Shown: positions 5,018 to 57,784 of the stretch, one piece after another
Layout: each line of letters begins with the position of its first letter
How positions within the stretch are numbered: position 1 is the stretch's first letter
NCBI GenBank assembly: GCA_030426545.1
Contig: JAUHYL010000001.1
Location: 1 to 64,000 of the forward strand
DNA length: 64,000 nucleotides
Reading direction: 5' to 3'
Origin: Gammaproteobacteria bacterium
GTDB taxonomy: Bacteria; Pseudomonadota; Gammaproteobacteria; Pseudomonadales; Halieaceae
The notes under the pieces: generated by a model
The model's input: only the letters and a program-made list of their open reading frames with translations
Databases searched by the model: none
Told to the model about the DNA's origin: nothing
Position numbers and translations under genes: made by a program

Positions 5018-5105
5018 GACATTTGTCGCCATCGGCTTGCCCCCTGCCGTAACAGAAAATGGTTGGCAAACGATTTAGCTGCATTTACCATGGCTCTATC
5101 TATTG

Positions 5106-5120
5106 AACATCACTGTTGTT
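5106..5120. promoter_or_regulatory. Operator-like palindrome (CAACAnTGTTG family, one mismatch)
   Basis: AACATCA, C, TGTTGTT forms an inverted repeat with one mismatch in seven pairs. The core 5108-5118 (CATCACTGTTG) differs by one base from the palindrome found ahead of other units. It lies about 55 bases before the SDR start at 5175 and just before a TTTATAG sequence that could serve as a -10 element. Confidence 0.6.
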
Positions 5121-7839: not shown

Positions 7840-8700
7840 TCAGGTACGCAGGCGCTGCCGATATCGACCCGGCGACTCTCCCGTTGCTCGACGGAAGGCA
7901 TAACAGAAACTCGACGGCGAAGAAAACCCCAGCGCGTAGGCAATACCTTTCACACTCATCTGGGTAAGCAGCAGTTCCCTGGCCCTGGTCGCACGTAATC
8001 CCACCATATAATCCCCAATTGAACAGCCGCGACTGGCTCGAAAGCCGCGTGTAAGCTGGCGCACGGAAAGCCCGCACAGGGCAGCAAGTTCCGCGAGATT
8101 GGGCATCTCGCCACTCGCCTTGAGGCGCTCGTCGATCAATCGTAGCCGCCAACCTGGGAGCCCACCGGTGACACCTTCCGCCGACAGCGCCAGCTGGTAG
8201 CGCGCCAGTTCCACCGCGAGTTGCGCAACTATCAGCTCTGTGAGTGTGGCACTGGCAAAGCCTGGGTGGCGGACCTCGGCGGCAAGCCTTTCCAAAAGCA
8301 GGCGTATATTACCGTGACGGATATCAAGACCCGCGAGCAAACTGCCGTCGGACCACTCTATATCTGCCTCCAACCAGTTATTCATCTGGCCGGGATCAAA
8401 CTCGCACAGCAGCGAGGTCTGCTCACAGCAGCCATCGCTCTGGGCCTGCAGGCGTTCCCCGGGGGGAACGACAAAGACATTGCCCAGCGGCGCAAAATGC
8501 CGCATGCCCGGACGATCGGGATAGCGCGCTCGAGCATTGACCGGTCGCGGCGTGAGACACAGGTCGAGGCGGTAGCGCTCCGTTTCGCGCAAAGTGCTGT
8601 CGACCGGCGTCTCGAACTGAAAGCGCACCAGGCGCGCGGCGGCCACTGGCGCTGTGACCTCACCTTCAACCGTCATGGAGTGTTCCGGCGCAGCTCTCAC
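7840..8700 (-). CDS. AraC-family transcriptional regulator
   Basis: A 286-residue regulator. The C-terminal ~100 residues hold the two helix-turn-helix units: LAELAALCGLSVRQLTRGFR, then IAYALGFSSPSSFCYAFRR followed by GESPGRYR, matching the AraC/XylS signature. The N-terminal ~170 residues are the sensor part, without a motif I can name. The start is a GTG at 8700, six bases after the MoaD-like gene; an in-frame ATG at 8676 is an alternative. It is the last gene of the molybdenum-hydroxylase operon and convergent with the amidohydrolase that ends at 7836. It probably responds to a substrate or product of that enzyme, but whether it controls this operon is inference. Confidence 0.88.
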   Translation of the reverse strand: MRAAPEHSMTVEGEVTAPVAAARLVRFQFETPVDSTLRETERYRLDLCLTPRPVNARARYPDRPGMRHFAPLGNVFVVPPGERLQAQSDGCCEQTSLLCEFDPGQMNNWLEADIEWSDGSLLAGLDIRHGNIRLLLERLAAEVRHPGFASATLTELIVAQLAVELARYQLALSAEGVTGGLPGWRLRLIDERLKASGEMPNLAELAALCGLSVRQLTRGFRASRGCSIGDYMVGLRATRARELLLTQMSVKGIAYALGFSSPSSFCYAFRRATGESPGRYRQRLRT

Positions 8701-8962: not shown

Positions 8963-11272
8963 TTATTCCACCGCTCTGTCTATTGCAGCCAGCAGTTTGG
9001 GCGGCGACAGTGGCAGGTCGTATAACGCGGTACCCGCAGCGCGGTTTACCGCGGTGGCCACTGCGGGCATGGGCGGACAGATTGGCACCTCGCCGACACC
9101 GCGGATGCCGTAGGGGTGCAGCGGATTGGGCTCTTCAATAATCACGGTATCGATCATGGGCAGGTCTGATGCGACCGGCATGCGGTAGTCGAGAAAACCG
9201 GGATTTTCCAACACACCGTTTTCATCGTACAGATACTCCTCGTTCAAGGCCCAGCCGATGCCCTGTACGGCACCCCCCTGCATCTGGCCTTCAACATAGG
9301 CGGGGTGTACCGCCTTGCCCGCATCCTGTATGCAGGTAAATCGGGTGATGTCGACCTTGCCGGTTTCGCGGTCCACTGCCGCGTCACAGATGTTAATGGC
9401 AAACGCCGGTGCCGAGTTGTGCGCGTGCAGCGACGCAACGGCACTGAGCGGACCGCCAGTCGCGCCGGAAGTTTCAGCGAGCTCGACGAGACTCATTTCC
9501 CGATTCTCCAACTGCACTGCGGCACCGGCGTCCATAAGGTTTTCCAGGTCGCCGGTTGTTCTGGCGACGGCCTTGCCGTCGACCCACTCGACCTCATCGA
9601 GGTCGACCCCCCAGATCGCTGCCGCGCGGTGGCGCAACTCCAGTACAAGCTTCTCGGCCGCCTGGATCACCGCGCCACCGGTGGCGAGCGTGGTCCGGCT
9701 GCCGCCAGTACCGTCGCAGTAACCCACCGAATCCGTGTCGGCGACCGTCGGGTGTACGGTTTCGACCGGTACACCAAAGACCTCGGCAGCAAGTAACGCC
9801 ATGGAGGCGCGCGAGCCGCCAATATCCGGATTGCCAGTAAGCACGTTGATGGCGCCATCCAGGGCTATATTGATTGTGGCACTGGACTGCTGGCCGGAAT
9901 TTATCCAGAAAGCTGAGGCGAGACCGCGGCCCTGGCCAGGGCCCAATGGCGCCTGGTAATGCGGGTGTTCCTTCGCTGCCTGCAGCGCCTTCTTATAGCC
10001 GATCGCCTGGAAGGGCAGCCCAAAGACCGGAATATCACCCTCCTCCACCGCATTGTGCAGGCGAAAGTCGACCGGGTCGATGCCAAGTTCTTCCGCCAAC
10101 TCATTGACCGCGCATTCCACCGCCATAATCGACTGCGGCGCGCCCGGAGCGCGGTAGGCCCATACCCTGGGCTTGTTCGTCAGTACTTCGCGACCGCGAC
10201 TGCGTTGGTTCTCACACCGATAACACGCGGCACCAAACATAGTTGCCGGCATGATCGAACTGCTTGAATAACACCCGGAATCCATCACGATATCGATGTC
10301 GATCGCAGTGAGCGTACCGTCTTTCTTCGCACCGATACGCACCCGCGTCTCCGAGCAGGAAACGGGGCCCGTCGCGCGAAACACCTCCTCGCGACTCAAC
10401 ACCACCTTTACAGGCCGGCCAGACTTGAGTGCGAGTACCGCCGCAACCGGCTCAATATAAACCGTGGTCTTGCCACCAAAACCGCCGCCGATCTCTGACG
10501 CGGTTACCTTGATTTTGCCGGGTTCGATGCCAGTGAGCTGCGAGGTAAAATTGCGCACCATGAACGGACCCTGTGTGCAGCACCAAATCTCCACGCGGCC
10601 GGTTTCATCTGCACTGGCGATAGCGGCGTGAGGTTCTATGTAGCCCTGATGGCACATGGGCACCGAGTAAGTGCGCTCGACCACCACGTCTGCATCGGCG
10701 AAACCAAGATCTACATCGCCCATCTCCAGCGCCAGGTCCACCGAGAGATTGGAGGGCACCGTCGGTGCGGGGTCAAGCCCTGTCGTAATCAGGTCCGCGT
10801 GCAGCAGCGGTGCATCGTCCTCAAGCGCCGCATGCATGTCGATCACATGAGGAAGCACCTCGTACTCGACGCGCACCAGCGCTGCTGCCTCCGCCGCCAG
10901 CGATGCAGACGTGGCGGCGACAGCCGCCACAGGATGGCCGTGAAACATCGCCCTGCCGCGTGCCATGACCACGGGTGCCATATCACTGAGTTTCATTTCT
11001 ATCTCAGCGCCTTGCATCAGTTTGTCGCCTGGCTCGGGCAAATCCTCCCCCGTCATGGTCGCGATTACACCCGGCAGTTTCAGCGCCTCGGAGAAATCGA
11101 TCGACTTGATGACCGCGTGTGCATAAGGGCTGCGTACATAGTGGGCATGCAGCATGCCAGGCAGATTGAGGTCCGCACCGTACTTGGCGCGACCGGTGAC
11201 CTTGTCGGGACCGTCAGGACGCACGGGACGCGTGCCGACATACTTGAAGTCAGTCTTGACGCTGTCATTCAT
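8963..11272 (-). CDS. Molybdenum hydroxylase, large molybdopterin-binding subunit (xanthine dehydrogenase family)
   Basis: A 769-residue catalytic subunit of the xanthine dehydrogenase/CO dehydrogenase/aldehyde oxidase family. It hydroxylates a substrate carbon using water and passes electrons to Fe-S and FAD subunits. The N-terminal part (VGTRPVRPDGPDKVTGRAKY) is the usual aldehyde-oxidase N domain. GGGFGGK near residue 250 and YRAPGAPQS near 350 line the cofactor. The catalytic Glu is in IRGVGE near residue 735. Start ATG 11272 lies four bases after the 2Fe-2S gene and follows GAGGAG. Operon order is FAD, 2Fe-2S, Mo subunit, MoaD-like, AraC. Candidate substrates are N-heterocycles, aldehydes or a steroid/terpenoid tertiary carbon; none can be chosen from the sequence. 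Confidence 0.93.
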   Translation of the reverse strand: MNDSVKTDFKYVGTRPVRPDGPDKVTGRAKYGADLNLPGMLHAHYVRSPYAHAVIKSIDFSEALKLPGVIATMTGEDLPEPGDKLMQGAEIEMKLSDMAPVVMARGRAMFHGHPVAAVAATSASLAAEAAALVRVEYEVLPHVIDMHAALEDDAPLLHADLITTGLDPAPTVPSNLSVDLALEMGDVDLGFADADVVVERTYSVPMCHQGYIEPHAAIASADETGRVEIWCCTQGPFMVRNFTSQLTGIEPGKIKVTASEIGGGFGGKTTVYIEPVAAVLALKSGRPVKVVLSREEVFRATGPVSCSETRVRIGAKKDGTLTAIDIDIVMDSGCYSSSSIMPATMFGAACYRCENQRSRGREVLTNKPRVWAYRAPGAPQSIMAVECAVNELAEELGIDPVDFRLHNAVEEGDIPVFGLPFQAIGYKKALQAAKEHPHYQAPLGPGQGRGLASAFWINSGQQSSATINIALDGAINVLTGNPDIGGSRASMALLAAEVFGVPVETVHPTVADTDSVGYCDGTGGSRTTLATGGAVIQAAEKLVLELRHRAAAIWGVDLDEVEWVDGKAVARTTGDLENLMDAGAAVQLENREMSLVELAETSGATGGPLSAVASLHAHNSAPAFAINICDAAVDRETGKVDITRFTCIQDAGKAVHPAYVEGQMQGGAVQGIGWALNEEYLYDENGVLENPGFLDYRMPVASDLPMIDTVIIEEPNPLHPYGIRGVGEVPICPPMPAVATAVNRAAGTALYDLPLSPPKLLAAIDRAVE

Positions 11273-11276
11273 GCGC

Positions 11277-11762
11277 TCACGCTCCTCGTATTTCCGAAGC
11301 GGCGGCCAGGACCGCCAGGATAATTTTGTCGTAACCCGTACAACGGCACAGATTGCCGGCCAGCCAGAAGCGCACCTCTTCCTCGCTTGGGTCTGGGTTT
11401 TCCTCCAGCAGCGCCTTGGCCGCAACCACCACACCGGGCGTGCAGATACCGCACTGTAGTCCCGCGTGTTCCAGTAGTTGCTGCTGTATTGGGTGCAATC
11501 GGCCATCTTGAGCCACACCCTCGATAGTCGCCACGCGGCGGCCCTCGGCCTCAGCGGCGAGCACCAGGCAGGAACAGACCAACGCATCGTCCAGCAGGAC
11601 GCTACAGGCACCGCAGTCGCCCGTCGTACAACCCTCCTTCGTGCCGGTCATCTCCAGGTTGTTGCGTAACGCATCGGACAAAACCTGCCCCGGCTCACAC
11701 AGGAACTCGCGCGGCTCCCCGTTCACCGTGGTACTGACATGTATCTTTCTCACTTGCATCAT
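11277..11762 (-). CDS. Molybdenum hydroxylase, [2Fe-2S] subunit
   Basis: A 161-residue small subunit with two 2Fe-2S clusters. The N-terminal ferredoxin-like cluster ligands lie in GCTTGDCGACSVLLD...VCSC (about residues 44-65). The second cluster is in CGICTPG (about 102) and CRCTGY (about 140). It carries electrons from the molybdenum centre to FAD. Two adjacent ATG codons open the gene at 11762, nine bases after the FAD subunit stop. The length and motif order match CoxS-type subunits. Confidence 0.95.
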   Translation of the reverse strand: MMQVRKIHVSTTVNGEPREFLCEPGQVLSDALRNNLEMTGTKEGCTTGDCGACSVLLDDALVCSCLVLAAEAEGRRVATIEGVAQDGRLHPIQQQLLEHAGLQCGICTPGVVVAAKALLEENPDPSEEEVRFWLAGNLCRCTGYDKIILAVLAAASEIRGA

Positions 11763-11771
11763 CCCGCAGCC

Positions 11772-12641
11772 TTACGTGGGTTGTTCGATACGCGACCGCG
11801 CAATGGCAGCGGCACGCCGGACCAGCACACCGACGACCTTCCTGCGGTAGTCGGCGGTGCCGCGCTTGTCTGTAATTGGTACAGCGGCGCCAGACGCCGC
11901 GTACCCCGCGTTACGCAGGCTGTCCTCGTCCAGCGTGGTACCGATGAGCGCAGCTGCGGCCCCAGGCACCAACAGCGCTGTAGGGGCGACCGCTCCGATT
12001 GCAACGCGCGCGTCGGTACACACACCCGACTCATCCAGCGTCAACGCCACGCCGGCGCCGACGATCGCGATGTCCATCTCGGTACGCGGAATCATGCGCA
12101 GGTAGGCATCGGCTGTGCGCGGCGCTGGCCTCGGCAACTCCAGAGACACCAGTATCTCCCCGTCCTCGAGACAGTGCGTGCCGGGGCCAGTGGTGAAATC
12201 TTCCGCCGCCACCGTGCGTTCTCCACCGAGCCCAGCGATGTGGCAGGTCGCACGATTCACGATCAACGCGGGTACGCAGTCCGCCGCCGGGGATGCGTTG
12301 CACAGGTTACCGCCGGCGGAACAACGACCCTGTACCTGGCTGGAACCGATCAGGCCGAGCGCCTCGGTGAAGCCGGGGTAGATACGCGCGATCTCCCTGT
12401 TTGTCGTCACGATGGCGCCGGGTACCGCGGCACCAAGGCGCAGACCGTTGTCATCGAGGGTGAGAGCCGTCAGTTCGGGGATGCGCTTGAGATCAACAAT
12501 ATGCTGTGGGTCACGCAGGCCCAGCTTTACCTGCACAAGAAGGTCGGTGCCGCCGGCAAGGGGTCTGTTAGCCGCCCCACCCGCCAGCGCCTGCAGGGCT
12601 TCTGCCAACGTGGAGGGCGCGCTGTACTGAACTAGTGACAT
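11772..12641 (-). CDS. Molybdenum hydroxylase, FAD-binding subunit
   Basis: A 289-residue CoxM-type subunit. The FAD-binding N-terminal half shows RPLAGGTDLL near residues 31-40 and the CSAGGNLCNASPAAD motif near 105-120. The C-terminal CO-dehydrogenase flavoprotein domain follows. The ATG at 12641 starts MSLVQYSAPSTLAEAL. Longer in-frame readings up to 12749 contain a basic, low-complexity extension unlike the family and run into the operator. It is the first gene of the operon and diverges from the SDR at 12888. Confidence 0.93.
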   Translation of the reverse strand: MSLVQYSAPSTLAEALQALAGGAANRPLAGGTDLLVQVKLGLRDPQHIVDLKRIPELTALTLDDNGLRLGAAVPGAIVTTNREIARIYPGFTEALGLIGSSQVQGRCSAGGNLCNASPAADCVPALIVNRATCHIAGLGGERTVAAEDFTTGPGTHCLEDGEILVSLELPRPAPRTADAYLRMIPRTEMDIAIVGAGVALTLDESGVCTDARVAIGAVAPTALLVPGAAAALIGTTLDEDSLRNAGYAASGAAVPITDKRGTADYRRKVVGVLVRRAAAIARSRIEQPT

Positions 12642-12743
12642 GCAAAATCCCGGGTTGTTAACAATCGTCCTGAGGACCGGCTGGCGCAGGCGGCTCGCGG
12701 CCCGGGCAGGTGCCCGGCGCTGCCGGGCCACGCCCAAACTTTT

Positions 12744-12754
12744 CAACACTGTTG
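12744..12754. promoter_or_regulatory. Operator-like palindrome CAACAcTGTTG between divergent units
   Basis: An exact match to CAACAnTGTTG. It lies 103 bases before the FAD-subunit start (12641, minus) and 134 bases before the SDR start (12888, plus). A TATACT at 12773-12778 could be the -10 for the plus-strand unit, placing the operator over its -35 region. The rest of the 246-base divergent region shows no gene. Confidence 0.75.
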
Positions 12755-19345: not shown

Positions 19346-20125
19346 TCAGCGCGGCTGCATGCGTATAGCGCCATCCAGGCGAATCGTCTCGCCATTTACG
19401 TATCCATTGCGAAGCAGTTCCAGCGTCATGCTGGCATATTCCTGCGGGTCGCCGAGACGCTTCGGAAACGGCACCATGCCACCGAGCGACTTGAGCATCT
19501 CGTCCGGTACGCGCGCCATCGGAGGCGTGTGGAAAATGCCGGGCTGAATGGTGTTCACACGGATACCCTCCCGCGATAAGTCGCGAGCAATCGTCAGTGT
19601 CATACCGACAATCGCAGCCTTCGCAGCGGAATAGGCAGCCTGGCCGATCTGGCCCTCTGTGGCAGCCGCGGACGCGGTGTTAATCATCGCGCCGCGCTCG
19701 CCGTCGATCGGTTCGAGCTCCATCATTCCGGCTGCCGAACGCGTGATACAGCGAAAAGTACCCACTGTATTGAGCTTGAGCACCCACTCGAACTGATCGG
19801 TGGGAAACATTTTGATTTCACCTGTCTTCTTGTCGCGCTTAACAGTCGGGATGGCGTTGCCACCGCCGGCACAGCAGATTAGTGCACGCTCCTGGCCCTG
19901 GGCATCGCGAGCCTTGGCAAACGCGGCGTCCACGCTGTCGTCAGACAGCACATCGCACTGACAGAAAATGGACCCTGTCTCGGCCGCAGCCTGCTCACCC
20001 GACTCCTCATTTAGATCAAAGATGGCAACTTGTGCACCGGCGGCGCGCAGGGCCTTGACCGTGGCGAGCCCGAGCCCGGAAGCGCCGCCCGTGACGACTG
20101 CCGCGAGTGAGGAATCTACTTTCAT
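19346..20125 (-). CDS. SDR oxidoreductase, HSD10 / 3-hydroxyacyl-CoA dehydrogenase-like
   Basis: A 259-residue SDR of the HSD17B10 group, which oxidises 3-hydroxyacyl-CoAs and some hydroxysteroids with NAD. The cofactor motif TGGASGLG is at about residues 10-17, and Asp in FDLNEE favours NAD. CCAGGG stands in place of NNAG, NTASAAA holds Ser, and YSAAKAA (about 163-169) holds Tyr/Lys. The PFPKRLGDPQEYA segment and VNGETIRLDGAIRM end are typical of this subgroup. An AAGGAG site precedes the ATG at 20125. A minus-strand promoter with its -35 overlapped by an operator is visible at 20203-20231. Confidence 0.86.
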   Translation of the reverse strand: MKVDSSLAAVVTGGASGLGLATVKALRAAGAQVAIFDLNEESGEQAAAETGSIFCQCDVLSDDSVDAAFAKARDAQGQERALICCAGGGNAIPTVKRDKKTGEIKMFPTDQFEWVLKLNTVGTFRCITRSAAGMMELEPIDGERGAMINTASAAATEGQIGQAAYSAAKAAIVGMTLTIARDLSREGIRVNTIQPGIFHTPPMARVPDEMLKSLGGMVPFPKRLGDPQEYASMTLELLRNGYVNGETIRLDGAIRMQPR

Positions 20126-20202: not shown

Positions 20203-20231
20203 TATATATAACAGCCACCATAACTATGCAA
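20203..20231 (-). promoter_or_regulatory. Sigma-70-type promoter of the HSD10-like SDR gene
   Basis: Read on the minus strand: TTGCAT (-35) at 20231-20226, a 17-base spacer, then TATATA (-10) at 20208-20203. It lies 78 bases before the start at 20125. The -35 hexamer overlaps the CAACAgTGTTG palindrome at 20229-20239, so a bound protein should block RNA polymerase. Confidence 0.55.
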
Positions 20232-20279: not shown

Positions 20280-21506
20280 ATGACTCAAGTAATGAAAGGT
20301 ATTCGCGTGTTGGAGGTCGCCCAAATGACCTTCGTGCCAGCCGCCGGCGCTATTCTGGCGGACTGGGGCGCCGACGTGATCAAGATCGAACACCCTGTGC
20401 GCGGAGACACCCAGCGCGGCTTTATCAATATGGGTGGCGTCAAGGTCAACCCGCAGCGCAGCCCGTTCGTGGAACACCCCAATCGGGGCAAGCGCAGCGT
20501 GGGCGTGGATATTTCAAAACCCGAGGGCGTCGAGGTCATTTACGAACTCGCAAAGACTGCTGATGTATTCCTCACCAATTACCTGCCGCGCCAGCGCCAG
20601 AAAATGAAATTCGACATTGAGCATATCCGCGCGGTCAACCCGGACATCATTTACGCGCGCGGTAGCGCCTATGGTGACAAAGGACCCGAGCGCGACACCG
20701 GCGGCTTCGACGGCACTGCATTCTGGAATCGCAGCGGCATTGCCACCGCCATGTCGCCGGCCGAACTTGGCGGCCCGATATCCCAGGGCATCCCTGCTTT
20801 TGGTGATTCGATCGGCGGCATGAACATCGCGGGCGGGATTTCGGCTGCGCTCTTCCACCGCGAACGCACGGGAGAGGCCATAGAGCTTGATGTCTCGCTC
20901 CTTAGCACCGCCTGGTGGGCGGCCGGGACATCCATCGATATGGGTATCGACTGCGGCCAGGTATCGCGCAACCGCATGCCCTCATCCGGTGGCAATCCCG
21001 GCAATCCATTCATGGGCAACTACACAACTTCGGACGGCGGCACGATCAACCTGTGCACGCTGACACCGGGCCCGCACATCCGCAATGTATTCGAACATCT
21101 GGGCATTCCCGACGCGGCGGATGATGCGCGCTTCGCCGACGTAGATTCCCTCATGCAGAACTGGGAAGCGGCCAGCGACCTGATCCGCGAACAATTCGCC
21201 GCCAAACCCTTTGACTACTGGCGCGAACACCTTAAGACTATGAGCGGGCAGTGGGCGCCAGTGCTCGACCTCCTGCAAATTGCCGCAGACGAACAGGCAC
21301 TGGCCAATGACATGCTGTTCGAAGTCGAGGCGCGCGACGGAGGCGACCCCGTCAAACTCGTGCGCGGCCCGGTGCAGTTCAACCACGAACCCGTGCAGAC
21401 CACCAGCGCACCGGAGGCCTCGGAACACACCGAACTCGTACTGATGGAAGCGGGCATGGAGTGGGACGAGATCGAGAAACTAAAAGCCCTGGGCGCTATT
21501 GCCTGA
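20280..21506 (+). CDS. CaiB/BaiF-type (family III) CoA-transferase
   Basis: A 408-residue family III CoA-transferase, the usual length, moving CoA between a donor acyl-CoA and a free acid. The N-terminal GIRVLEVAQM and the ADWGADVIKIEHP segment (about residues 24-36) are characteristic. The catalytic Asp is probably in PAFGDSIGGM (about residue 180). The ATG at 20280 is preferred to a TTG two codons upstream. It heads a four-gene unit with a small Cys-containing protein, an acyl-CoA ligase and another small protein, so two CoA-loading routes sit together. Bile-acid/steroid CoA-transferases belong to the same family. Confidence 0.9.
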   Translation: MTQVMKGIRVLEVAQMTFVPAAGAILADWGADVIKIEHPVRGDTQRGFINMGGVKVNPQRSPFVEHPNRGKRSVGVDISKPEGVEVIYELAKTADVFLTNYLPRQRQKMKFDIEHIRAVNPDIIYARGSAYGDKGPERDTGGFDGTAFWNRSGIATAMSPAELGGPISQGIPAFGDSIGGMNIAGGISAALFHRERTGEAIELDVSLLSTAWWAAGTSIDMGIDCGQVSRNRMPSSGGNPGNPFMGNYTTSDGGTINLCTLTPGPHIRNVFEHLGIPDAADDARFADVDSLMQNWEAASDLIREQFAAKPFDYWREHLKTMSGQWAPVLDLLQIAADEQALANDMLFEVEARDGGDPVKLVRGPVQFNHEPVQTTSAPEASEHTELVLMEAGMEWDEIEKLKALGAIA

Positions 21507-21538
21507 ACTCCCTGCACAACAGAGCGAGCGAGACGACT

Positions 21539-21829
21539 ATGAAAGCCGGAACCAAGCTAAAAAGTGCCGTGTGCGATACCGAAGTCATGGTAATTCGCGC
21601 GGGCGAAGGTGTCGTGGCCTGCGGCGGTGTTCCGATGGCGGAAGACAAGCCCGCGGAGACCGGCAGTCCGGATTCCGAATTCTCAGGCGGCACTCTGCTC
21701 GGGAAGCGCTATGTCGACGCGCAAGATACGCTCGAGTTGCTGTGCGTCAAGCCGGGCGCAGGATCCCTGTCGCTCGACGGCGTGGCGCTGATGACCAAGG
21801 ACGCCAAGCCACTGCCCTCCTCGGACTAA
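21539..21829 (+). CDS. Small conserved-looking protein with three cysteines; unknown function
   Basis: A 96-residue protein between a CoA-transferase (33 bases upstream) and an acyl-CoA ligase (9 bases downstream). It begins MKAGTKLKSAVCDTEVMVIR, with further Cys in VACGGVP and LLCVKPG. The spacing suggests a small beta-rich domain, possibly binding metal through the three Cys. It ends KPLPSSD. I recall similar small proteins beside acyl-CoA ligases in actinobacterial catabolic clusters, but I cannot name a function. A search for co-occurrence with the ligase would be informative. Confidence 0.68.
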   Translation: MKAGTKLKSAVCDTEVMVIRAGEGVVACGGVPMAEDKPAETGSPDSEFSGGTLLGKRYVDAQDTLELLCVKPGAGSLSLDGVALMTKDAKPLPSSD

Positions 21830-23844: not shown

Positions 23845-24588
23845 CTAGTTGAATTGATAAGTCGCCAGGAACTCGCCGAATGCCACGACACAACGCGCGG
23901 CGTCAGCGCCGTTAATGACCCTGTGATCGTAACTGAGCGATAGCGGCAACAGACGCTGCGTCACCGGATTGCCGTCGGCGTCAGGCATCAGGCAGGCACG
24001 GGTACGCGTTACACCGAGAATGGCCACCTCGGGTGCATTGATGATCGGGGTGAACGCCGTGCCACCGATGTGCCCCAGTGACGAGATGGTAAAACAGCCG
24101 CCGGACATCTCAACCATCGAGAGTCCTTTACCCCGCGCCTTTTCCGACAACGCGGCGATCTCACCGGCGATCTCCTCGAGCGTCTTGCCATCGCAGTTCT
24201 GCACAACCGGCACGAGCAGTCCACCGGGCACATCCACGGCGAAACCGATATTGTAATAGCCCTTCTGGAACACTGTCGCACCGTCGGCACTGAGAGAACA
24301 GTTGAACTGCGGGTACTGCTCCAGCACTGCCACAGCGGCCTTGGTCAGCACGGGCAATAGTGTGCGCTTTTGCTCTGGGTGGGTCTCATTCCAGGCACGG
24401 CGGCGCGCCTCGAATTCTGTGACATCGACATTGTCGTGATGCGTTACGTGGGGTATCTGCGTCCAGTTGCGCTGCATGACGCGCCCGACGTGCTGCTGCA
24501 CACGGCCGGGCTCACGCGGCTCCACCGGGCCGTACTGGGAAAAATCCTCCTCGGGCCAGGGCAACGGGGGTACGGTCTTGTCACTCAT
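23845..24588 (-). CDS. E2-like acyltransferase catalytic domain without lipoyl domain
   Basis: A 247-residue protein matching only the catalytic domain of 2-oxo-acid dehydrogenase E2 components. The active-site motif is LSYDHRVINGADAAR (about residues 212-226), where His and Asp-Arg of DHRxxxG lie. The catalytic core starts with NWTQIPHVTHHDNVDVTEFE split over the first two strands. There is no N-terminal lipoyl domain and no peripheral-subunit-binding domain, so it cannot act as an ordinary swinging-arm E2. It follows the thiolase by 14 bases with a GGAG site before ATG 24588. A stand-alone CoA-dependent acyltransferase acting with the thiolase is the most likely role (inference). Confidence 0.82.
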   Translation of the reverse strand: MSDKTVPPLPWPEEDFSQYGPVEPREPGRVQQHVGRVMQRNWTQIPHVTHHDNVDVTEFEARRRAWNETHPEQKRTLLPVLTKAAVAVLEQYPQFNCSLSADGATVFQKGYYNIGFAVDVPGGLLVPVVQNCDGKTLEEIAGEIAALSEKARGKGLSMVEMSGGCFTISSLGHIGGTAFTPIINAPEVAILGVTRTRACLMPDADGNPVTQRLLPLSLSYDHRVINGADAARCVVAFGEFLATYQFN

Positions 24589-24602
24589 TGTTTCGCTCCA
24601 GG

Positions 24603-25856
24603 CTAAAGCCGTTCGATGATCATGGCCGGCGCCATGCCGCCCGCTGCGCACATGGTAATCAGTGCATAACGGCCGCCACTGCGCTCCAGTTCGTCGAGCG
24701 CCGTACCGATCAGGATAGCACCCGTAGCCGCGATGGGGTGCCCAAGCGCGATCGCCCCGCCATTAGGGTTGACCTTCTCCCGATCGAGTTCGAGGTCACG
24801 TATAAACTTCTCGACGACAACAGCGAACGCCTCGTTCACTTCCCACACATCGATGTCGTCCTTGCCCAGACCTGCTTTTTCCAGCACTTTTTTCGCGGCG
24901 GGTACAGGCGCGTTCAACATCAGCGTCGGGTCATCGCCCACGTTGGCCATGGCGACCACGCGAGCGCGGGGTTGCATACCGTGCCGGTCTGCATACTCCC
25001 TGGAGGCCAGCAGCACTGCGGCCGCACCGTCCACGACGCCAGAGGAAATACCCACGTGATGCAGAGGCTCGAATTCGAGATCCGGGTACTTCTGTTTGAT
25101 CAGCTCAGCGAAGGTGGGCCCGCCTTTCTGCGACGGCATACTGTGAAACATCTCAAAGGCCGGCTTCAGGTCCGCGAGGCTCTGAAGCGTGGTCTCCGGT
25201 CGGGGGTACTCCTCGTGATCGAGGATGACATTGCCCTCATCGTCGCGCACAGTAATGGTGGAATTATCGAAACGCCCCTGCTCGATGGCTCGCGCGGCTC
25301 GTTGCTGGCTCTGTATACCCAATTCTTCAAGTTCTGAGCGCGAAATGCCCTCCATCGCGGCAATCGCATCAGCACAGACACCCTGATTCGACTGCGGATG
25401 CGTGGCCTGGAGGCGCGGGTTACCCACCCCCATCCCGGCCGATCCAACGCCGGCCTCGCGCATCTTCATGCCGTGCGCGGTGACGTAGGAGAGCATCTCG
25501 GAGCCGCCCGCGACCACGAGGTCCTCCATACCCGCCATGATCTGGCCCGCCGCGAGGTTCGCAGCCGTCAGTCCACTGCCGCAGAACCGGTTCAGGGTTA
25601 CGCCGCTCGCGCGGACGTCGTAACCCGCATCGAGGGCAGCCATGCGTCCAACATCGCCGGCCTGCAGGCCAATCTGCCCGGAAACCCCCCAGATCACATC
25701 GTCCACGTCCGCGGTGTCGAATTGGTTGCGATCGCGAATAGCGGCAAGCACGCAGGCGGCAAGGTGCTCCGGGTGCATCTTCGACAGAGCACCCTTGCCC
25801 GGCTTACCGATGCCCCGCGGGGTGCGCAAGGCGTCGATGATATAAGCGTCCGACAT
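24603..25856 (-). CDS. Thiolase (acetyl-CoA C-acyltransferase)
   Basis: A 417-residue thiolase with all catalytic elements: nucleophilic Cys in NRFCGSGL (about residue 92), NEAF (about 345), GGAIALGHPIAATGA (about 375-389) and the second Cys in CAAGGMAPAM near the end. It cleaves 3-ketoacyl-CoA to acetyl-CoA and a shortened acyl-CoA, or the reverse. The ATG at 25856 follows AGGAGA by a normal distance. Its promoter (25910-25938) has the -35 box inside the palindrome at 25936-25946, which it shares with the divergent TetR gene. A second, Cys-less thiolase-like gene lies at 36789. Confidence 0.93.
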   Translation of the reverse strand: MSDAYIIDALRTPRGIGKPGKGALSKMHPEHLAACVLAAIRDRNQFDTADVDDVIWGVSGQIGLQAGDVGRMAALDAGYDVRASGVTLNRFCGSGLTAANLAAGQIMAGMEDLVVAGGSEMLSYVTAHGMKMREAGVGSAGMGVGNPRLQATHPQSNQGVCADAIAAMEGISRSELEELGIQSQQRAARAIEQGRFDNSTITVRDDEGNVILDHEEYPRPETTLQSLADLKPAFEMFHSMPSQKGGPTFAELIKQKYPDLEFEPLHHVGISSGVVDGAAAVLLASREYADRHGMQPRARVVAMANVGDDPTLMLNAPVPAAKKVLEKAGLGKDDIDVWEVNEAFAVVVEKFIRDLELDREKVNPNGGAIALGHPIAATGAILIGTALDELERSGGRYALITMCAAGGMAPAMIIERL

Positions 25857-25909
25857 GACATTCTCCTGATGGCCGACTGGCTCGGCACGCTGGTCCGTAA
25901 AGGGCAAAA

Positions 25910-25938
25910 ACTATACAGCGACACCCCTTATCATTCAA
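25910..25938 (-). promoter_or_regulatory. Sigma-70-type promoter of the thiolase/E2-like unit
   Basis: On the minus strand TTGAAT (-35) at 25938-25933, a 17-base spacer and TATAGT (-10) at 25915-25910. The start codon is at 25856, leaving a leader of about 50 bases. The -35 hexamer overlaps the CAACAaTGTTG palindrome, consistent with repression by a bound dimer. Confidence 0.6.
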
Positions 25939-25946
25939 CAATGTTG
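25936..25946. promoter_or_regulatory. Operator-like palindrome CAACAaTGTTG next to the TetR gene
   Basis: An exact match to CAACAnTGTTG, located between the divergent thiolase and TetR genes. A half-site-like AACAACAGTG follows at about 25956-25965. On the plus strand a TATAAC at 25949-25954 could be the TetR -10. Operators in a TetR gene's own divergent promoter are typical of autoregulation in this family. Confidence 0.78.
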
Positions 25947-26034
25947 TCTATAACGAACAACAGTGGAAAACCTCCCGCTCCCCGCAGGTCGATACGCTTT
26001 GCTACTATGGTGAAAAAAGCGTAGACGAACCGGG

Positions 26035-26667
26035 ATGACAAAAACCAGACAGGACGGCGATACGGAAGACGCCAAGGGGCGCGCCAAGCGCAGCTATAAC
26101 AGCCCATTGCGCGAACAGCAGAGCCGCGAAACGCGTGACCGCATCGTCGCTGCGGGCGCCGAGCTGGTGCACGAATTCCACGCCTGGGACTGGACCAATC
26201 TCACGGCGCGGGCGGTGGGTGAGCGAGCCGGGGTCAGCGAGCGGACCGTGCAGCGCTATTTTCCCACCGAGCTGCAACTGCGCGACGCCGTGTTACAACG
26301 CCTGGTTGATGAGTCGGGTGTAAACCTTGACGCCCTGGAACTCGGCGACTTTTCCGGTGTGATCGAGAGCATGTTCACCTATCTGTCGTCCTTCGCCATC
26401 AAGCCGGAGACGGTGGCAGACCCCTCCTTTGCCTCGATGGACAAGTACCGCCGGGACATGCTGCTGGGCGCAGTCGAGCGCGCTATGCCTGACTGGCAGG
26501 CAGAAGACCGCACCTCGGTCGCGGCAATGCTGGATATATTCTGGAACCCGCTGTTGTATGAACGCCTGGTGGAAGCCTGGGATATGAGCCCCGATCAGGC
26601 CGTAAAGGTCATCACCTGGCTGGTACGTCTGGTCGAGGAAGCCGCGTACGATAATCGCCACCCCTGA
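26035..26667 (+). CDS. TetR-family repressor; candidate regulator of the CAACAnTGTTG sites
   Basis: A 210-residue TetR-type regulator. A basic, acidic-mixed N-terminal tail of about 30 residues precedes the DNA-binding domain: helix 1 SRETRDRIVAAGAELV, then LTARAVGERAGVSERTVQRYFP, the helix-turn-helix with the usual YFP end. The C-terminal ligand domain has no diagnostic motif. In this family the dimer binds a palindrome and lets go when a ligand, often an acyl-CoA in catabolic clusters, binds. It lies centrally in the island and diverges from the thiolase gene across an exact operator, so it is the best candidate for the island-wide repressor. This assignment is by position only. Confidence 0.9.
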   Translation: MTKTRQDGDTEDAKGRAKRSYNSPLREQQSRETRDRIVAAGAELVHEFHAWDWTNLTARAVGERAGVSERTVQRYFPTELQLRDAVLQRLVDESGVNLDALELGDFSGVIESMFTYLSSFAIKPETVADPSFASMDKYRRDMLLGAVERAMPDWQAEDRTSVAAMLDIFWNPLLYERLVEAWDMSPDQAVKVITWLVRLVEEAAYDNRHP

Positions 26668-26702
26668 TCCACGCGACGGATGCTGGTATAACAATCTCGA
26701 CC

Positions 26703-26717
26703 CATGCAAATTGCATG
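26703..26717. promoter_or_regulatory. Palindrome CATGCAA-a-TTGCATG
   Basis: Perfect 7-bp arms around one base, in the 199-base gap between the TetR gene and the ferredoxin reductase gene. It is unlike the CAACAnTGTTG element and lies 110 bases farther upstream of the reductase start. It could be a second operator or part of a transcription end for the TetR gene; it lacks a T-run. Confidence 0.4.
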
Positions 26718-26776
26718 TCGTCAAACTGTTACCTAACAGGGGGGTCGTCGAGTTCGCAAATTCGGGGCAAAGATGG

Positions 26777-26788
26777 TGATTGCAATCA
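26777..26788. promoter_or_regulatory. Perfect 12-bp palindrome TGATTGCAATCA
   Basis: A self-complementary 12-mer 25 bases upstream of the CAACAtTGTTG operator and in the same intergenic region as CATGCAAaTTGCATG. Both these palindromes share a TTGCA core, suggesting two sites for one further regulator. No protein is assigned. Confidence 0.35.
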
Positions 26789-26812
26789 GCCGTGTGATTG
26801 AGTATTTTTAAG

Positions 26813-26823
26813 CAACATTGTTG
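26813..26823. promoter_or_regulatory. Operator-like palindrome CAACAtTGTTG ahead of the ferredoxin reductase unit
   Basis: An exact match to CAACAnTGTTG. It sits immediately upstream of TATAAT at 26828-26833, so it falls in the -35/-10 spacer of the likely promoter, 44 bases before the ATG at 26867. This is a classic repressor position. Confidence 0.78.
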
Positions 26824-26866
26824 ATTATATAATAGGCCTTCCGCCAGGGCCGCTCCCGGAGATTGA

Positions 26867-28093
26867 ATGAGTAACGCCCACGCCGTGATTGTCGGCGCCA
26901 GCCACGCCGCGGCCCAACTCTCTGTCGGCCTGCGCCAGAGCGGTTGGGAAGGCGGCATTTCTGTCGTTGGCAGCGAGGCTATCCCGCCCTACCACCGCCC
27001 GCCCCTCTCCAAAGACTACCTCGGCGGCGACAAACACGCAGACGAACTCCTGATCCGCCCCGCTGCTTTTTACCAGCAGCAGGATATTAACCTCGTGCTG
27101 GGCACTCGGGTCACCGCCCTGGACCGCGCGAACAAGGAGATCGAACTGCACGACGGAGCGCGCATTCCCTATACGAAGCTCGCACTGACCACAGGCGCGG
27201 CCGTGCGCAAGCTGCCGCTCACAGGCAGTGACCTCGACGGCGTACTCTACCTGCGCGAGCTGAGCGACGTCGACCGCATCCGCGGCTATCTCGGCGCGGG
27301 CAAGTCCGCTGTCATCATCGGCGGCGGCTATATCGGCCTTGAAACGGCTGCATCGCTGCGCAAGCAGGGCATGAATGTCACGGTGCTTGAAGCTCAGCCA
27401 AGGGTTTTGCAACGAGTGACGGCGCCCGAAGTGTCAGCATTTTATAGCCGCGTGCACCGGGAGGAAGGCGTCAATATCATGACCGAGGCGCAGGTACAGG
27501 CAATAAGTGGCGAAGGTCGAGTGCAGGGCGTCACCCTGTCAGACGGCACACACATTGATGCTGACCTGGTCATTATCGGTGTCGGCGTTATTCCCGCGAC
27601 GGAACTGGCAGAGACGGCCGGCCTGGAAGTCGACAACGGTATTGTCGTGGACGAATACGCGCGCACGTCGGACCACGACATCGTCGCCGCGGGCGACTGC
27701 ACAAACCACTACAGCGCTATCTACGATCGTCGGCTCCGCCTGGAATCCGTGCAAAACGCCACCGACCAGGCCAAGCTCGCGGCCGGCACCCTCTGCGGCA
27801 AGCTCGAAGCTTACAACGCGCTGCCCTGGTTCTGGTCGGATCAATACGACCTCAAGTTACAAATTGCCGGCCTGTCGCAGGGGTTCGACCGCGTCGTCAT
27901 GCGCGGCGACAGCGAGTCTGGCAGGAGTTTCGCCGCATTCTATTTCAGCGGCGAACGCCTGCTGGCCGTGGACGCCGTTAACAGACCCAAGGAATTCATG
28001 TCGGTGCGCCGCGCGTTGACACAGGGTCAGTCAGCAGACCCCGAGGTCCTGGCGGACGATTCAGCAGACATCAAGCAAGCTTTCAGCACGTAG
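26867..28093 (+). CDS. NAD(P)H:ferredoxin reductase, FAD-dependent (rhodocoxin/putidaredoxin reductase-like)
   Basis: A 408-residue flavoprotein. The FAD-binding region near the start reads IVGASHAAAQLS. YHRPPLSKDYL is characteristic of oxygenase-coupled reductases, and VIIGGGYIGLETA (about residues 146-158) is the NAD(P)H fold. ARTSDHDIVAAGDCT (about 267-281) is the second FAD contact. It should take electrons from NAD(P)H to a 2Fe-2S ferredoxin, encoded 61 bases downstream, and on to the P450 (38358) or Rieske oxygenase (14867). It starts a plus-strand unit running to the TonB receptor, with an exact operator in its promoter. Confidence 0.93.
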   Translation: MSNAHAVIVGASHAAAQLSVGLRQSGWEGGISVVGSEAIPPYHRPPLSKDYLGGDKHADELLIRPAAFYQQQDINLVLGTRVTALDRANKEIELHDGARIPYTKLALTTGAAVRKLPLTGSDLDGVLYLRELSDVDRIRGYLGAGKSAVIIGGGYIGLETAASLRKQGMNVTVLEAQPRVLQRVTAPEVSAFYSRVHREEGVNIMTEAQVQAISGEGRVQGVTLSDGTHIDADLVIIGVGVIPATELAETAGLEVDNGIVVDEYARTSDHDIVAAGDCTNHYSAIYDRRLRLESVQNATDQAKLAAGTLCGKLEAYNALPWFWSDQYDLKLQIAGLSQGFDRVVMRGDSESGRSFAAFYFSGERLLAVDAVNRPKEFMSVRRALTQGQSADPEVLADDSADIKQAFST

Positions 28094-50889: not shown

Positions 50890-51912
50890 TCAGGCATGGT
50901 TTTTCGCCTCTTGACCTGCGTACCAGGCAACGGCATCGCGTATCGTCTCCGCAATAGGCCGCGGATGCCAGTCCAGATCACGGCGCGCCTTGCTCGAGTC
51001 CATCTCGCGAAAAGCGTTGGCCATGAACACCGCGTCGGCGCGCGCCATGAAGTCGCGTTTGCCGCGCAGGCGCATCCAGCGTTCTCCCAGCCACGCCATA
51101 GCATAGGCCACCGGCATGGGGATGACGCGTGGGGGTGGCTTACCCCCCTCGGCCGCAGCCAGGGCACAGAATTCGCGGTTACTGATAAATTCGTTGGCGA
51201 TGATATAGCGCTCCCCCGAGCGGCCCCGGACTTCCGCCGCCAGCGCGGCCTCCGCCACGTCACGGATATCGACCGTGGGTGCGCCGGCATCCATGGTAAA
51301 CCCTGCGCGACCGCGGGAAACATCGCGCAACATAGCGCCGTGGGGCGTGGGCGCATAATCCTCGGGGCCGTAAGTGTTAGCCACACACAACGCCACGCCT
51401 GGCAGACCGCGTTTGGCGCAATAATCGAAGAAACGATTTTCCGCTGCCAGGCGCGCGCGGATATACTCCGGCGCGCGGTCGAACCAGTTGAAGGGAATGT
51501 CTTCGGTAACAGGACCATCGGGGTTCAGGCCGAGCGTGCCCATCGTGCTCGTGAAAATAAAGCGTTCCACATCCAGCTCCAGCGCGGCGTCCATGGTATT
51601 GACCAGGCCGTCGACATTGTTGCGGTACAGCGGCGCGGAGTCAGTCAGCCAGAACCGTGCGTCGACAACGCAGTGAAAGACACTGCCGCAACCCTGCATG
51701 GCCGCGCGCAGTGACTCCGGGTCCAGTACATCGCCGTAGTGGATATCGACCGGAAGCCCCGACATGGCATCCTGCTTACTGCTCCTGCGCAGCATGACGC
51801 GCACCTTGCGACCACGCTGCGCAAGCAACCGGGCGGTGTGGCTGCCAACGAAGCCGCTGGCGCCGGTGACCAGTACCGGTTTGTCGAGAATGTCTTGCCG
51901 TTGATCCGTCAC
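50890..51912 (-). CDS. NAD-dependent epimerase/dehydratase (extended SDR), 3-beta-HSD-like
   Basis: A 340-residue extended SDR. VTGASGFVGSHTARLLA (about residues 13-29) is the GxxGxxG cofactor motif. Ser is near FTSTMGT (about 123-129), and the active-site Tyr/Lys analogue is in RAPEYIRARLAAE rather than canonical YxxxK, with Arg replacing Lys. The 3-beta-hydroxysteroid dehydrogenase/cinnamyl-type group is closest by pattern. The start is a GTG at 51912 with GAGG upstream, 31 bases after the AMP-ligase stop. An upstream ATG would overlap that gene. It probably acts on a hydroxyl/keto group of the operon substrate. Confidence 0.82.
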   Translation of the reverse strand: MTDQRQDILDKPVLVTGASGFVGSHTARLLAQRGRKVRVMLRRSSKQDAMSGLPVDIHYGDVLDPESLRAAMQGCGSVFHCVVDARFWLTDSAPLYRNNVDGLVNTMDAALELDVERFIFTSTMGTLGLNPDGPVTEDIPFNWFDRAPEYIRARLAAENRFFDYCAKRGLPGVALCVANTYGPEDYAPTPHGAMLRDVSRGRAGFTMDAGAPTVDIRDVAEAALAAEVRGRSGERYIIANEFISNREFCALAAAEGGKPPPRVIPMPVAYAMAWLGERWMRLRGKRDFMARADAVFMANAFREMDSSKARRDLDWHPRPIAETIRDAVAWYAGQEAKNHA

Positions 51913-51943
51913 TGACACCTCATCGGTTAATACGCCGTCCGTT

Positions 51944-53674
51944 TCAGGCCTCAGCCTGGGTAGCGCCCAATCGCTGCACAGCAATCGCGCGCAATTCCGC
52001 GGTCTTTATCTTTTCATTACCCGTGAGCGCAATGTCCGCCTCCTCGAAGAAGAGCACGCGGCGCGGCACTTTGTAGCTCGCGAGCCTCTCCTTGAGACAG
52101 CCGATAATCGCCCCCTCCTCCAACTGCGCGCCCGCTAGCGGCACTATGCAGGCGACAACCATCTCACTCAGGGTCTCGTGGGGCACACCCACCGTCTGCG
52201 TGCGTTTGACGCCCGGCAGGGTGGCGATAACCGTGTCTACCTCCTCGGGTGACACATTGGCACCGCCGGTCTTGATGATGTCGTTGAGGCGCCCCTCCCA
52301 GTACAGCCTGCCCTCTGCGTCCACGTAGCCGCCGTCGCCTGTGTGAAAATAGCCCTCGGCATCAAACACCTCACTCGCGTCGACGCCTGTATAACCGAGC
52401 ATCAGGGTGGGCCCCTTGATGCAGATCTCGCCGCGCTCACCAACCGGGACCACGGCGCCGGTCGCGGGATTCACAACCTTGAGCGTATTACCGGGCAGTG
52501 GCACACCAAAACTGTCCGCGTAGTCTTCTGCCGTGGCGTCCGCGTCGATGGACGAGAGGATGGTCATGGTCTCGGTCGTACCAAAGGAATTGGGCATTGC
52601 CCAGTCCGAGTGGACTGTCGGGTGCTCCAGCAAGATCTCACCTTTTGTCACGCAGTGCAGACTGGACAGGTCCGCGTGTTCCCAGCCGGCGCAGGCCTTG
52701 AGTCGGGCCCATTGGTGCGGTCGGCCATTCATCATTGTCACCCGCTCCGACTCTATCAGCGCAAGCGCCGCATCCGCGTCGAACAACGGCTGCAGGATAA
52801 GTGCCCCACCAGTGGAAAACGCAGTGCCGACTACCATCGTGACATTACCCGACCAGAAGAAGCCGTTACCCGTCCAGCAGCGCGCCGGTTCGCGTACACA
52901 GAATACCCGCGGCCAGCGCCACCACTGGATCGCGAAAGCCTGCTGCGTATGCAGGATGCCCTTGGGCAGGCTGGTCGTGCCCGAGGAAAAGAACAGGCCG
53001 CCCGGGTCAGTCGGCTGCACGCGATCAGCGCGTGCCTCGATCTCCCCGGCGGCTACCGCCGCGCCGCGCTGCAGGAAATCCGCCCAGGACTCAACCGCTG
53101 CCAGCTCTTTCACAGCCGCATCGGGTGCGGCAGTAAAACCATTGAGCCCGACCAGGTAGCGCAGTGCACGAAAGCGCTCGGATGCTACTTCGCCCGGCGC
53201 CGCGTCCGCTATTCCCGGCTCCAGCGCCACCAGCACCGTGGTGAAATCCTTGTTGAGCACCGTGCGTTCGAACAGCAGAACGGCAACGTCCGAGGCCGCG
53301 AGCAGATGCTCCAACTCGGGCGCCGTAGAAAAGGTACTGAGTGCGACCGAAATACCGCCGGCCATCGCCGTACCAAACAGCGCCGCGAGGTACTCGGGAC
53401 GGTTGGTCATGAGGATGCCAACGCGTGTTTCCCTCTCAACACCGCAGGCGACGAGCGCGCGGGCGACCGCTGTGGACTGCGCCAGCAGGTCATCGTAGGT
53501 CCAGCGCACCGCATCATGGTCGCGCGGTAGCACCACCGCCTCGCGCTCGCCATAGCGGGCCGCGACCTCACGCAGGTAGCCGGGTATGGTCAGTGCGCCC
53601 ATGCCGGGCTCAAGTGCCAGCGGCACACCCGAGACTATGGAGCGGTTACCGTCGACCTGTGCCGGAAGTCCCAT
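51944..53674 (-). CDS. Acyl-CoA synthetase (AMP-dependent)
   Basis: A 576-residue AMP-binding ligase. FFSSGTTSLPKGILH (about residues 215-229) is a core motif with one change (TTG to TTS). NSFGTTETMTI (about 350-360) is A5. YFHTGDGGYVDAEGRLYWEGRLND (about 430-453, split) is the A7/A8 part, and GNEKIKT near the end holds the catalytic Lys. Length fits medium/long-chain or steroid-CoA ligases. It overlaps no gene: ATG 53674 is 16 bases after the MaoC-type gene stop. It probably activates the acid that the two acyl-CoA dehydrogenases then attack. Confidence 0.9.
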   Translation of the reverse strand: MGLPAQVDGNRSIVSGVPLALEPGMGALTIPGYLREVAARYGEREAVVLPRDHDAVRWTYDDLLAQSTAVARALVACGVERETRVGILMTNRPEYLAALFGTAMAGGISVALSTFSTAPELEHLLAASDVAVLLFERTVLNKDFTTVLVALEPGIADAAPGEVASERFRALRYLVGLNGFTAAPDAAVKELAAVESWADFLQRGAAVAAGEIEARADRVQPTDPGGLFFSSGTTSLPKGILHTQQAFAIQWWRWPRVFCVREPARCWTGNGFFWSGNVTMVVGTAFSTGGALILQPLFDADAALALIESERVTMMNGRPHQWARLKACAGWEHADLSSLHCVTKGEILLEHPTVHSDWAMPNSFGTTETMTILSSIDADATAEDYADSFGVPLPGNTLKVVNPATGAVVPVGERGEICIKGPTLMLGYTGVDASEVFDAEGYFHTGDGGYVDAEGRLYWEGRLNDIIKTGGANVSPEEVDTVIATLPGVKRTQTVGVPHETLSEMVVACIVPLAGAQLEEGAIIGCLKERLASYKVPRRVLFFEEADIALTGNEKIKTAELRAIAVQRLGATQAEA

Positions 53675-57382: not shown

Positions 57383-57395
57383 ACAACAGTGTTGT
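57383..57395. promoter_or_regulatory. Operator-like palindrome ACAACAgTGTTGT ahead of the beta-oxidation operon
   Basis: Perfect 6-bp arms around G, containing CAACAgTGTTG exactly. It is about 200 bases upstream of the acyl-CoA dehydrogenase start (57185) and 59 bases upstream of the remnant at 57454. It sits beside TATTAT read on the minus strand, a possible -10. Confidence 0.72.
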
Positions 57396-57453: not shown

Positions 57454-57784
57454 ATGATCAGTGGAATTCTTCATGTTGCCGTGCATGTGCGCGATCTCGA
57501 CACCGTGATCAACTTCTGCCGCGACGCCTTCAGCCCCCAGCTCGTCGGCGAGCTCTTCGCCTGGAAGAACCATGCCTTCATCGACACCATTCTGGACGAG
57601 CCCAATTCCGCGGAACGCGCGTCGATGCTGATGGCGGGCACCTGCTACGCTGAGATGCTCCAGAACAGCGCCCCCGCGCCCGAATCCGATCGGCCGTAAC
57701 CCGGAGGGTAACCTCGTCGAAATCCAGCAGACCCACGAGTTCTGCGAATTTCCGCTAGATGCACTGACTAGCGCCTCAGAGTAA
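57454..57784 (+). pseudogene. VOC/glyoxalase-family gene with central deletion and frameshift
   Basis: The frame from ATG 57454 begins MISGILHVAVHVRDLDTVIN, like many vicinal-oxygen-chelate (glyoxalase/bleomycin-resistance) proteins, and continues through CYAEMLQNSAPAP to a stop at 57699. From about 57697 a second reading frame gives GRNPEGNLVEIQQTHEF, the standard VOC C-terminal Glu-strand (DPEGNxxEI), and ends at a stop at 57784. Typical VOC proteins of this type are about 145 residues; here roughly 50 central residues are missing and the halves are out of frame. The junction is near GATCGGCCGTAACC. The gene is therefore dead. Confidence 0.85.

Follow-up and report, generated by a model that had tools for sequence, protein, structure and literature searches.

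Which protein reads the palindrome CAACA-N-TGTTG that lies between a thiolase gene and a divergent gene for a TetR-type regulator, TetR-A, in a gammaproteobacterium of the Halieaceae? We addressed this question in a 64-kb stretch of DNA (the window) from a 4.35-Mb genome, G000, and in the genomes of its relatives. The region between the two genes is organized as follows.

25936-25946, no strand assigned: operator CAACAATGTTG, with N1 spacing of its half-sites, conserved in L010/L017 and L011/L018
25933-25938, minus strand: -35 hexamer of the thiolase, TTGAAT, with three bases (25936-25938) in common with the operator
25910-25915, minus strand: -10 hexamer of the thiolase, TATAGT, 17 bases from TTGAAT
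24603-25856, minus strand: thiolase of the acetyl-CoA C-acetyltransferase family, ATG at 25856, scoring above the cut-off of NF004682
26035-26667, plus strand: TetR-A, 210 aa, divergent from the thiolase, ATG at 26035

The first-pass annotation had described these two genes as divergent and had placed a minus-strand promoter (TTGAAT, 17 bases, TATAGT) before the thiolase, with its -35 at the palindrome. All of this was borne out. A sigma-70-like scan of positions 25800-26900 returned this promoter as its single match, on the minus strand and at 9 of 12 positions, although shuffled sequence gave a mean of 0.5 such matches and the promoter score by itself is therefore unremarkable. The spacing between TTGAAT and TATAGT is retained at L017, L018, L028 and L031. 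The operator sits on the divergent thiolase promoter, as expected of a divergent, autoregulated TetR arrangement, and is separated from the tetR-A ATG by 88 bp. Another block, TTTGCTACYATRG, is located about 30 bp 5' of that ATG and is conserved in two of three sequences (the window and L017); on visual inspection it resembles an extended -10 of its own. The operator is closer to the thiolase promoter than to this -10-like block, and a clear overlap with tetR-A's own promoter was not confirmed in the intergenic region of the window.

We next determined how often the operator recurs. The genome contains nine exact copies of CAACANTGTTG, versus three of the pattern read backwards as a control. 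Five of the nine fall in the window (12744, 20229, 25936, 26813 and 57384; binomial P ~8e-8), and shuffled windows contained a mean of 0.07 exact sites. All five are intergenic, in a window of which about 10% is intergenic according to a hand-made gene map (the map used ORF 11739-12635, with a small effect). No ORF that overlaps site 20229, 25936 or 26813 has a Pfam match. At sites 12744 and 57384 the overlap is limited to the opening 6 and 3 bases, respectively, of a gene taken at its longest reading, and the Pfam domains of these two genes start only at residues 40 and 77. The remaining four genomic copies lie within long open frames outside the window. The motif with two mismatches was not enriched in the window (28 versus 21). 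Therefore, only exact or near-exact copies carry signal, and degenerate copies are not readable as sites. ORF 11739-12635 was rejected as the gene before site 12744, since the Pfam domains are on the minus-strand ORF 11772-12749; the protein set used for the neighbourhood comparisons also included the rejected ORF. A candidate operator at 51612 was discarded because it lies inside an epimerase ORF (50890-51984).

The other sites of the window and the genes next to them are as follows.

26813-26823, no strand assigned: operator CAACATTGTTG, upstream of the ferredoxin reductase gene and those behind it; exact and in the same place in L010/L017
26867-35246, plus strand: probable operon behind the 26813 operator, with gene order through the lipase retained in L017
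20229-20242, no strand assigned: composite operator CAACAGTGTTGTTG, with overlapping N1 and N4 registers, between a divergent SDR and a CoA-transferase III
20280-21506, plus strand: CoA-transferase family III, downstream of the 20229 operator
19346-20125, minus strand: SDR, with its start put at about 20125 by eye (in frame, AGGAG upstream); the longest ORF gives 20221
12744-12754, no strand assigned: operator CAACACTGTTG, between molybdopterin-dehydrogenase genes (minus) and the SDR at 12888 (plus)
11772-12749, then 8963-11611, minus strand: molybdopterin-dehydrogenase FAD subunit, then large subunit, left of the 12744 operator
12888, plus strand: SDR, with a TIM-barrel gene at 13714, right of the 12744 operator
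57384-57394, no strand assigned: operator CAACAGTGTTG, upstream of minus-strand genes spanning 57.3 to 47.7 kb
5105-5118, no strand assigned: weaker site GAACATCACTGTTG, with one mismatch per register, upstream of an SDR at about 5175
1239-1252, no strand assigned: N4-spaced site CAACACTGGTGTTG, upstream of an SDR at 1293

The operon behind 26813 contains ferredoxin reductase, ferredoxin, PQQ dehydrogenase, MFS, lipase and TonB-receptor genes. The 20229 operator fills the gap between two outward-facing -10-like hexamers identified by eye. Behind 57384 follow, on the minus strand, two ACAD genes and genes for a FAS1_DH-domain protein, an acyl-CoA ligase, an epimerase, an alkyl-sulfatase-like protein and a KstD-like protein. 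The site at 1239 belongs to the N4 class and lies in a perfect inverted repeat, ATACAACAC-TG-GTGTTGTAT, which precedes SDR, malonyl-CoA decarboxylase and acyl-CoA ligase genes. Both this site and one at L022 were rejected as one-mismatch N1 sites; each is a perfect N4 site instead.

Several other ORFs of the window were recorded along the way. Directly behind the 57384 operator is an 81-aa ORF (57454-57696) without a Pfam match, which by eye resembles a cut-short gene continuing in another frame. In a 268-aa protein (23845-24651) Pfam shows only the catalytic domain of 2-oxoacid-dehydrogenase acyltransferase (E2), and an E2-domain gene is found near the thiolase in many relatives. A conserved small ORF (96-110 aa, MKxGTKLxS...) lies between the CoA-transferase and the acyl-CoA ligase in L061, L063, L065 and L066; the window ORF 21461-21829, without a Pfam match, may be its counterpart. 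A third TetR-like protein (192 aa, 61740-62318) shows weak similarity to the C-terminal part of TetR-A (26% over 89 aa).

The operator is conserved beyond G000. Within the family, 8 of the 140 genomes, G000 among them, have TetR-A; the named records of relatives with this TetR come from Halieaceae, Solimonas, Zhongshania and other gammaproteobacteria. A contig scan yielded 17 loci: 16 carry TetR-A orthologues (L017-L032, 45-81% identical), and the last, L033, is off-target at 34%. A check proposed in the first-pass annotation was to look for the same operator near TetR orthologues. The 17 loci held 13 exact copies of the motif versus none for each of ten control palindromes. With one mismatch there were 23 copies, compared to 1-19 for the controls. 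One of the exact copies, in L019, may be coding, so some of them may not be sites. The two window sites next to tetR-A are found at the same positions next to the 81% orthologue (L010/L017), and the thiolase site is retained next to the 58-60% orthologue (L011/L018). The longest run identical among the three intergenic regions (window, L017 and L018) contains the operator block. In L028 and L031 a one-mismatch operator stays with the thiolase, though the thiolase lies about 9 kb from tetR-A. The CoA-transferase promoter has an N1 operator in all ten orthologues found among 390 genomes of the order at E <= 1e-150 (nine exact, one with one mismatch), and the same operator also precedes other catabolic operons. 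These comparisons support an operator that is real, conserved and placed to block the thiolase promoter. Because the orthologous loci retain the operator and both promoter hexamers, and because the CoA-transferase site is retained as well, CAACA-N-TGTTG is the predicted operator of a conserved catabolic regulon.

Is TetR-A its reader? TetR-A belongs to the TetR family by its N-terminal TetR_N helix-turn-helix (PF00440, E 2.3e-4), which scores 21.3 bits, below the 24-bit cut-off; the orthologue in L021 passes at 24.5 bits. Structure matches of its AlphaFold model (mean pLDDT 81.4, pTM 0.61) were regulators, nearly all titled TetR or known to be TetR-type, among the matches listed. Foldseek found nothing for this model at E <= 0.001, the first match being KstR at 1.2e-3, and in VIA-align KstR was tied with NalC and EilR (Z 10.9 versus 10.5, rmsd 11-14 Å, TM ~0.35). 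These structural matches were not used for ligand assignment.

The distribution of TetR-A does not follow that of the operator. At a profile E-value of 1e-8 or below, TetR-A is absent from five of the ten CoA-transferase genomes that carry the operator: G190 (75% complete), G319 (88%), G235 and G262 (both 99%) and G325 (100%, one contig). The best TetR match to the TetR-A profile in these five reached 6e-6 and covered about half of the profile. In G365 (L068) the thiolase, tetR-A and an amidohydrolase are consecutive; in G235 and G262 (L062 and L063) tetR-A is missing between the thiolase and the amidohydrolase, and the CoA-transferase operator is exact. Compared to L068, tetR-A was lost from L062 and L063 with the thiolase promoter region, leaving the thiolase beside the amidohydrolase on the same strand. 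G004, also without TetR-A, carries exact copies at C13:18021 and 30560, and its thiolase is preceded by a copy with one mismatch. The motif is conserved both with and without TetR-A, which goes halfway towards the pattern that the first-pass annotation had named as refuting its proposal, namely conservation only where this TetR is absent.

Autoregulation of TetR-A was also part of that proposal. Among 18 genomes, the 200 bp upstream of tetR-A contain an exact N1 site in four (window, L017, L018 and L030), an exact N4 site in one (L022) and a one-mismatch N1 site in four (L021, L028, L029 and L068); the other nine have no site at one mismatch or fewer. Several of the sites upstream of tetR-A are explicable by the divergent partner gene. 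The part of the claim that stands is the operator on the divergent thiolase promoter; it may or may not cover tetR-A's own promoter, and with half of the genomes lacking an upstream site autoregulation is no more than possible.

We also looked at the spacing of the half-sites. When the tetR-A neighbourhoods were scanned de novo for inverted repeats, CAACA-N1-TGTTG came out on top (16 copies versus 0.3 expected), followed by CAACA-N4-TGTTG (13 versus 0.2 expected). Across 24 genomes, with 1.06 Mb surveyed, spacings 1 (57 sites) and 4 (29 sites) were the only ones to stand out. TetR-A genomes contained 33 N1 and 20 N4 sites and TetR-A-less genomes 24 and 9; no other spacing between 0 and 12 exceeded three sites in either group. 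Composites of the CAACAGTGTTGTTG type, which include both registers, make up 17 of the N4 sites, and many of these are at the CoA-transferase promoter. The 18 TetR-A genomes (694 kb) contained 11 sites with N4 spacing only, and the six TetR-A-less genomes (366 kb) contained one, a composite that departs from N1 at a single position; Fisher P is 0.04 if this composite is counted and 0.006 if it is left out. This contrast is suggestive of a link between N4-only sites and TetR-A genomes, but it is confounded by kinship, since 6 of the 11 come from Solimonas, and several of the TetR-A-less stretches were picked for holding N1 sites. Eight of the 11 are overlapped by a stop-free frame of at least 150 codons. 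Most of these frames were judged to be non-genes; the one over the L026 site has acyl-CoA-dehydrogenase homology.

Around the sites of TetR-A-less genomes we found another TetR family, TetR-B, of about 230 aa, which outside the helix-turn-helix region does not clearly resemble TetR-A. It is also present in G000.

C22:167821-169237 (locus L165), outside the window on the window's own contig: two tandem TetR-B genes

These genes are 141 kb from the window site cluster, which surrounds tetR-A. A one-mismatch site, CAACAGTGATG, occurs about 1.1 kb downstream of them. Every one of the 18 TetR-A genomes and of the five TetR-A-less operator genomes matched the TetR-B profile at E <= 1e-66. Of 20 other genomes, 17 were without TetR-B at E <= 1e-10, two had weak partial matches (~1e-11 to 1e-12) and G004 had two copies. 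In the order sample, where the TetR searches scored at most seven first-look candidates per genome, TetR-B was found at E <= 1e-60 in 14 of 390 genomes, including all ten CoA-transferase holders and all six TetR-A holders. Of the two regulators, TetR-B is the one present in all ten operator-bearing CoA-transferase genomes.

The operator is also found near tetR-B itself. All six of the f29 family genomes have an exact copy ~159-420 bp upstream of tetR-B; G513 has one at about -83, and one-mismatch copies are found at -90 in G515 and G516. An N4 site is also found upstream of a tetR-B (L150). The genes are clustered in the order thiolase, TetR-B, E2 in G325, G485 and G319 and in the order thiolase, E2, TetR-B in G004; the thiolase has a one-mismatch operator in G325, G485 and G004, and the G319 contig ends near the thiolase. 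No operator at one mismatch or fewer was found in the ~1.5 kb upstream of tetR-B in G000, G127, G044, G045, G047, G120 and G126, nor upstream of tetR-B in G319, G512 and G004; in G046 the view extends only ~0.1 kb upstream. In three genomes of the order, G032, G232 and G401, TetR-B is present, the CoA-transferase is missing and no operator precedes tetR-B. The co-occurrence of TetR-B and operator may reflect the pathway rather than binding. Counting sites genome-wide was rejected as a way to identify the reader: in a comparison of 27 genomes, 20 without TetR-A hold 0-9 sites and seven with TetR-A hold 3-10, the exact sites mostly not being placed relative to genes.

On these comparative grounds, the adjoining TetR-A is not the best-supported candidate for the reader. 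Our best estimate, with a probability of roughly 0.48, is a TetR-repressed catabolic regulon that is read by TetR-B, with TetR-A as a second or partial reader. The first-pass annotation had proposed that TetR-A reads the whole set of sites. A version of this proposal, in which TetR-A alone reads CAACANTGTTG in this lineage and represses the thiolase and itself, with another TetR having taken over the operator in TetR-A-less genomes, would account for the clustering of sites round tetR-A in G000, for the exact operator at L030 and for that in the tetR-A/thiolase gap of the window, L017 and L018, where it lies in a block conserved beyond its 11 bp. We consider it rather unlikely, as the operator is retained without TetR-A in half of the CoA-transferase genomes and in G004, and half of the tetR-A genes have no operator within 200 bp upstream. 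TetR-A is probably not the sole reader and may not read the operator at all.

Alternatively, the two TetRs could share one half-site, one reading N1 and the other N4, with N4 as the register of TetR-A and composites taking either. The two-peaked spacing survey and the excess of N4-only sites in TetR-A genomes are what this division would produce; the Solimonas kinship, the stop-free frames over N4-only sites, the choice of TetR-A-less stretches partly for their N1 sites and the N4 site upstream of tetR-B in L150 all weaken it, and we regard it as unlikely. A third regulator, whether the AraC-type protein encoded at 7840-8700 or one not found here, such as some other regulator common to these genomes, is a much less probable reader. 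Orthologues of the AraC-type protein at 50-57% identity are found near operator sites in L028, L066 and L120, but matches in the compared f29 stretches are partial and weak (e.g. ~34% over 104 aa in L125), and a short palindrome without mismatches is more in keeping with binding by a TetR dimer than by an AraC monomer, which reads direct repeats.

On the preferred reading, with TetR-B as the main reader, a TetR-family repressor would bind CAACA-N-TGTTG and control a catabolic regulon that includes the thiolase, the CoA-transferase and acyl-CoA ligase, the SDRs, the ferredoxin reductase, PQQ dehydrogenase and TonB receptor, and the acyl-CoA dehydrogenases. A dimer at 25936 would cover the thiolase -35, and one at 20229 would fill the space between two divergent promoters; at these sites and at 12744, a TetR dimer on the DNA would be positioned to obstruct RNA polymerase. 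Release of the repressor would come from a pathway intermediate. TetR-B would be the most conserved reader, binding by either TetR being our inference, and TetR-A an additional regulator, confined to certain lineages, that may bind these same sites or the N4-spaced ones, rather than a single master.

The genes behind the sites encode thiolase, CoA-transferase III, acyl-CoA ligases, SDRs, acyl-CoA dehydrogenases and a KstD-like dehydrogenase, as well as ferredoxin reductase and ferredoxin with PQQ dehydrogenase and a TonB receptor. Near the sites are a P450, an SCP2-type thiolase and a second KstD-like gene. From this gene content the pathway looks like polycyclic isoprenoid degradation. None of the steroid equivalogs of NCBIfam reached its cut-off among the proteins searched, and the substrate, hence the ligand, was therefore left unassigned; an acyl-CoA as ligand is a guess.

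This arrangement resembles the KstR regulon. The mycobacterial TetR repressor KstR (Rv3574) is reported to be divergent from an acyl-CoA pathway gene, with a palindrome that overlaps a promoter and recurs upstream of many lipid-degradation operons (PMC1995591). Both systems combine a divergent TetR with a palindrome at the promoter that is repeated before catabolic operons. KstR chains also head the structure list of TetR-A, the structural match being weak, and KstR is the only NCBIfam match of TetR-A at E <= 0.001. However, TetR-A scores 19.2 bits versus an equivalog cut-off of 280 for NF033703, and the KstR core is reported as AAC-N2-GTT, compared to AAC-N3-GTT (N1) or AAC-N6-GTT (N4) here. 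TetR-A was rejected as a KstR orthologue on this cut-off and because the KstR operator, TnnAACnnGTTnnA, is not matched. KstR and KstR2 are reported to be two TetR regulators within one catabolic programme (PMC3068626). Here too there are two TetR candidates but, unlike that pair, both may share the half-site sequence. Literature searches by degenerate and exact 11-mers and by topic returned, among the matches listed, no description of such an operator. The tetO operator has 5-bp arms and one central base (5+1+5). Our operator shares this geometry and the overlap of divergent promoters, and differs from tetO/TetR in its half-site, its second, N4 spacing and its many sites per genome.

These results give a large and so far uncharacterised catabolic regulon, with KstD-like, acyl-CoA dehydrogenase, thiolase and CoA-transferase genes, an operator that can be tested. 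The regulon is common to Halieaceae, Solimonas and Zhongshania, and the operator is conserved among relatives from marine and freshwater habitats. They also indicate that the adjoining repressor is an unsafe guess for the reader of an operator. A broader suggestion, which we hold to be doubtful though worth stating, is that two non-orthologous TetR families run one regulon through CAACA/TGTTG half-sites at N1 and N4, with composites taking either regulator, so that TetR-A could be lost without rewiring of the operators. If true, two unrelated TetRs on one operator would represent a natural example of regulators being exchanged while their binding sites stay in place.
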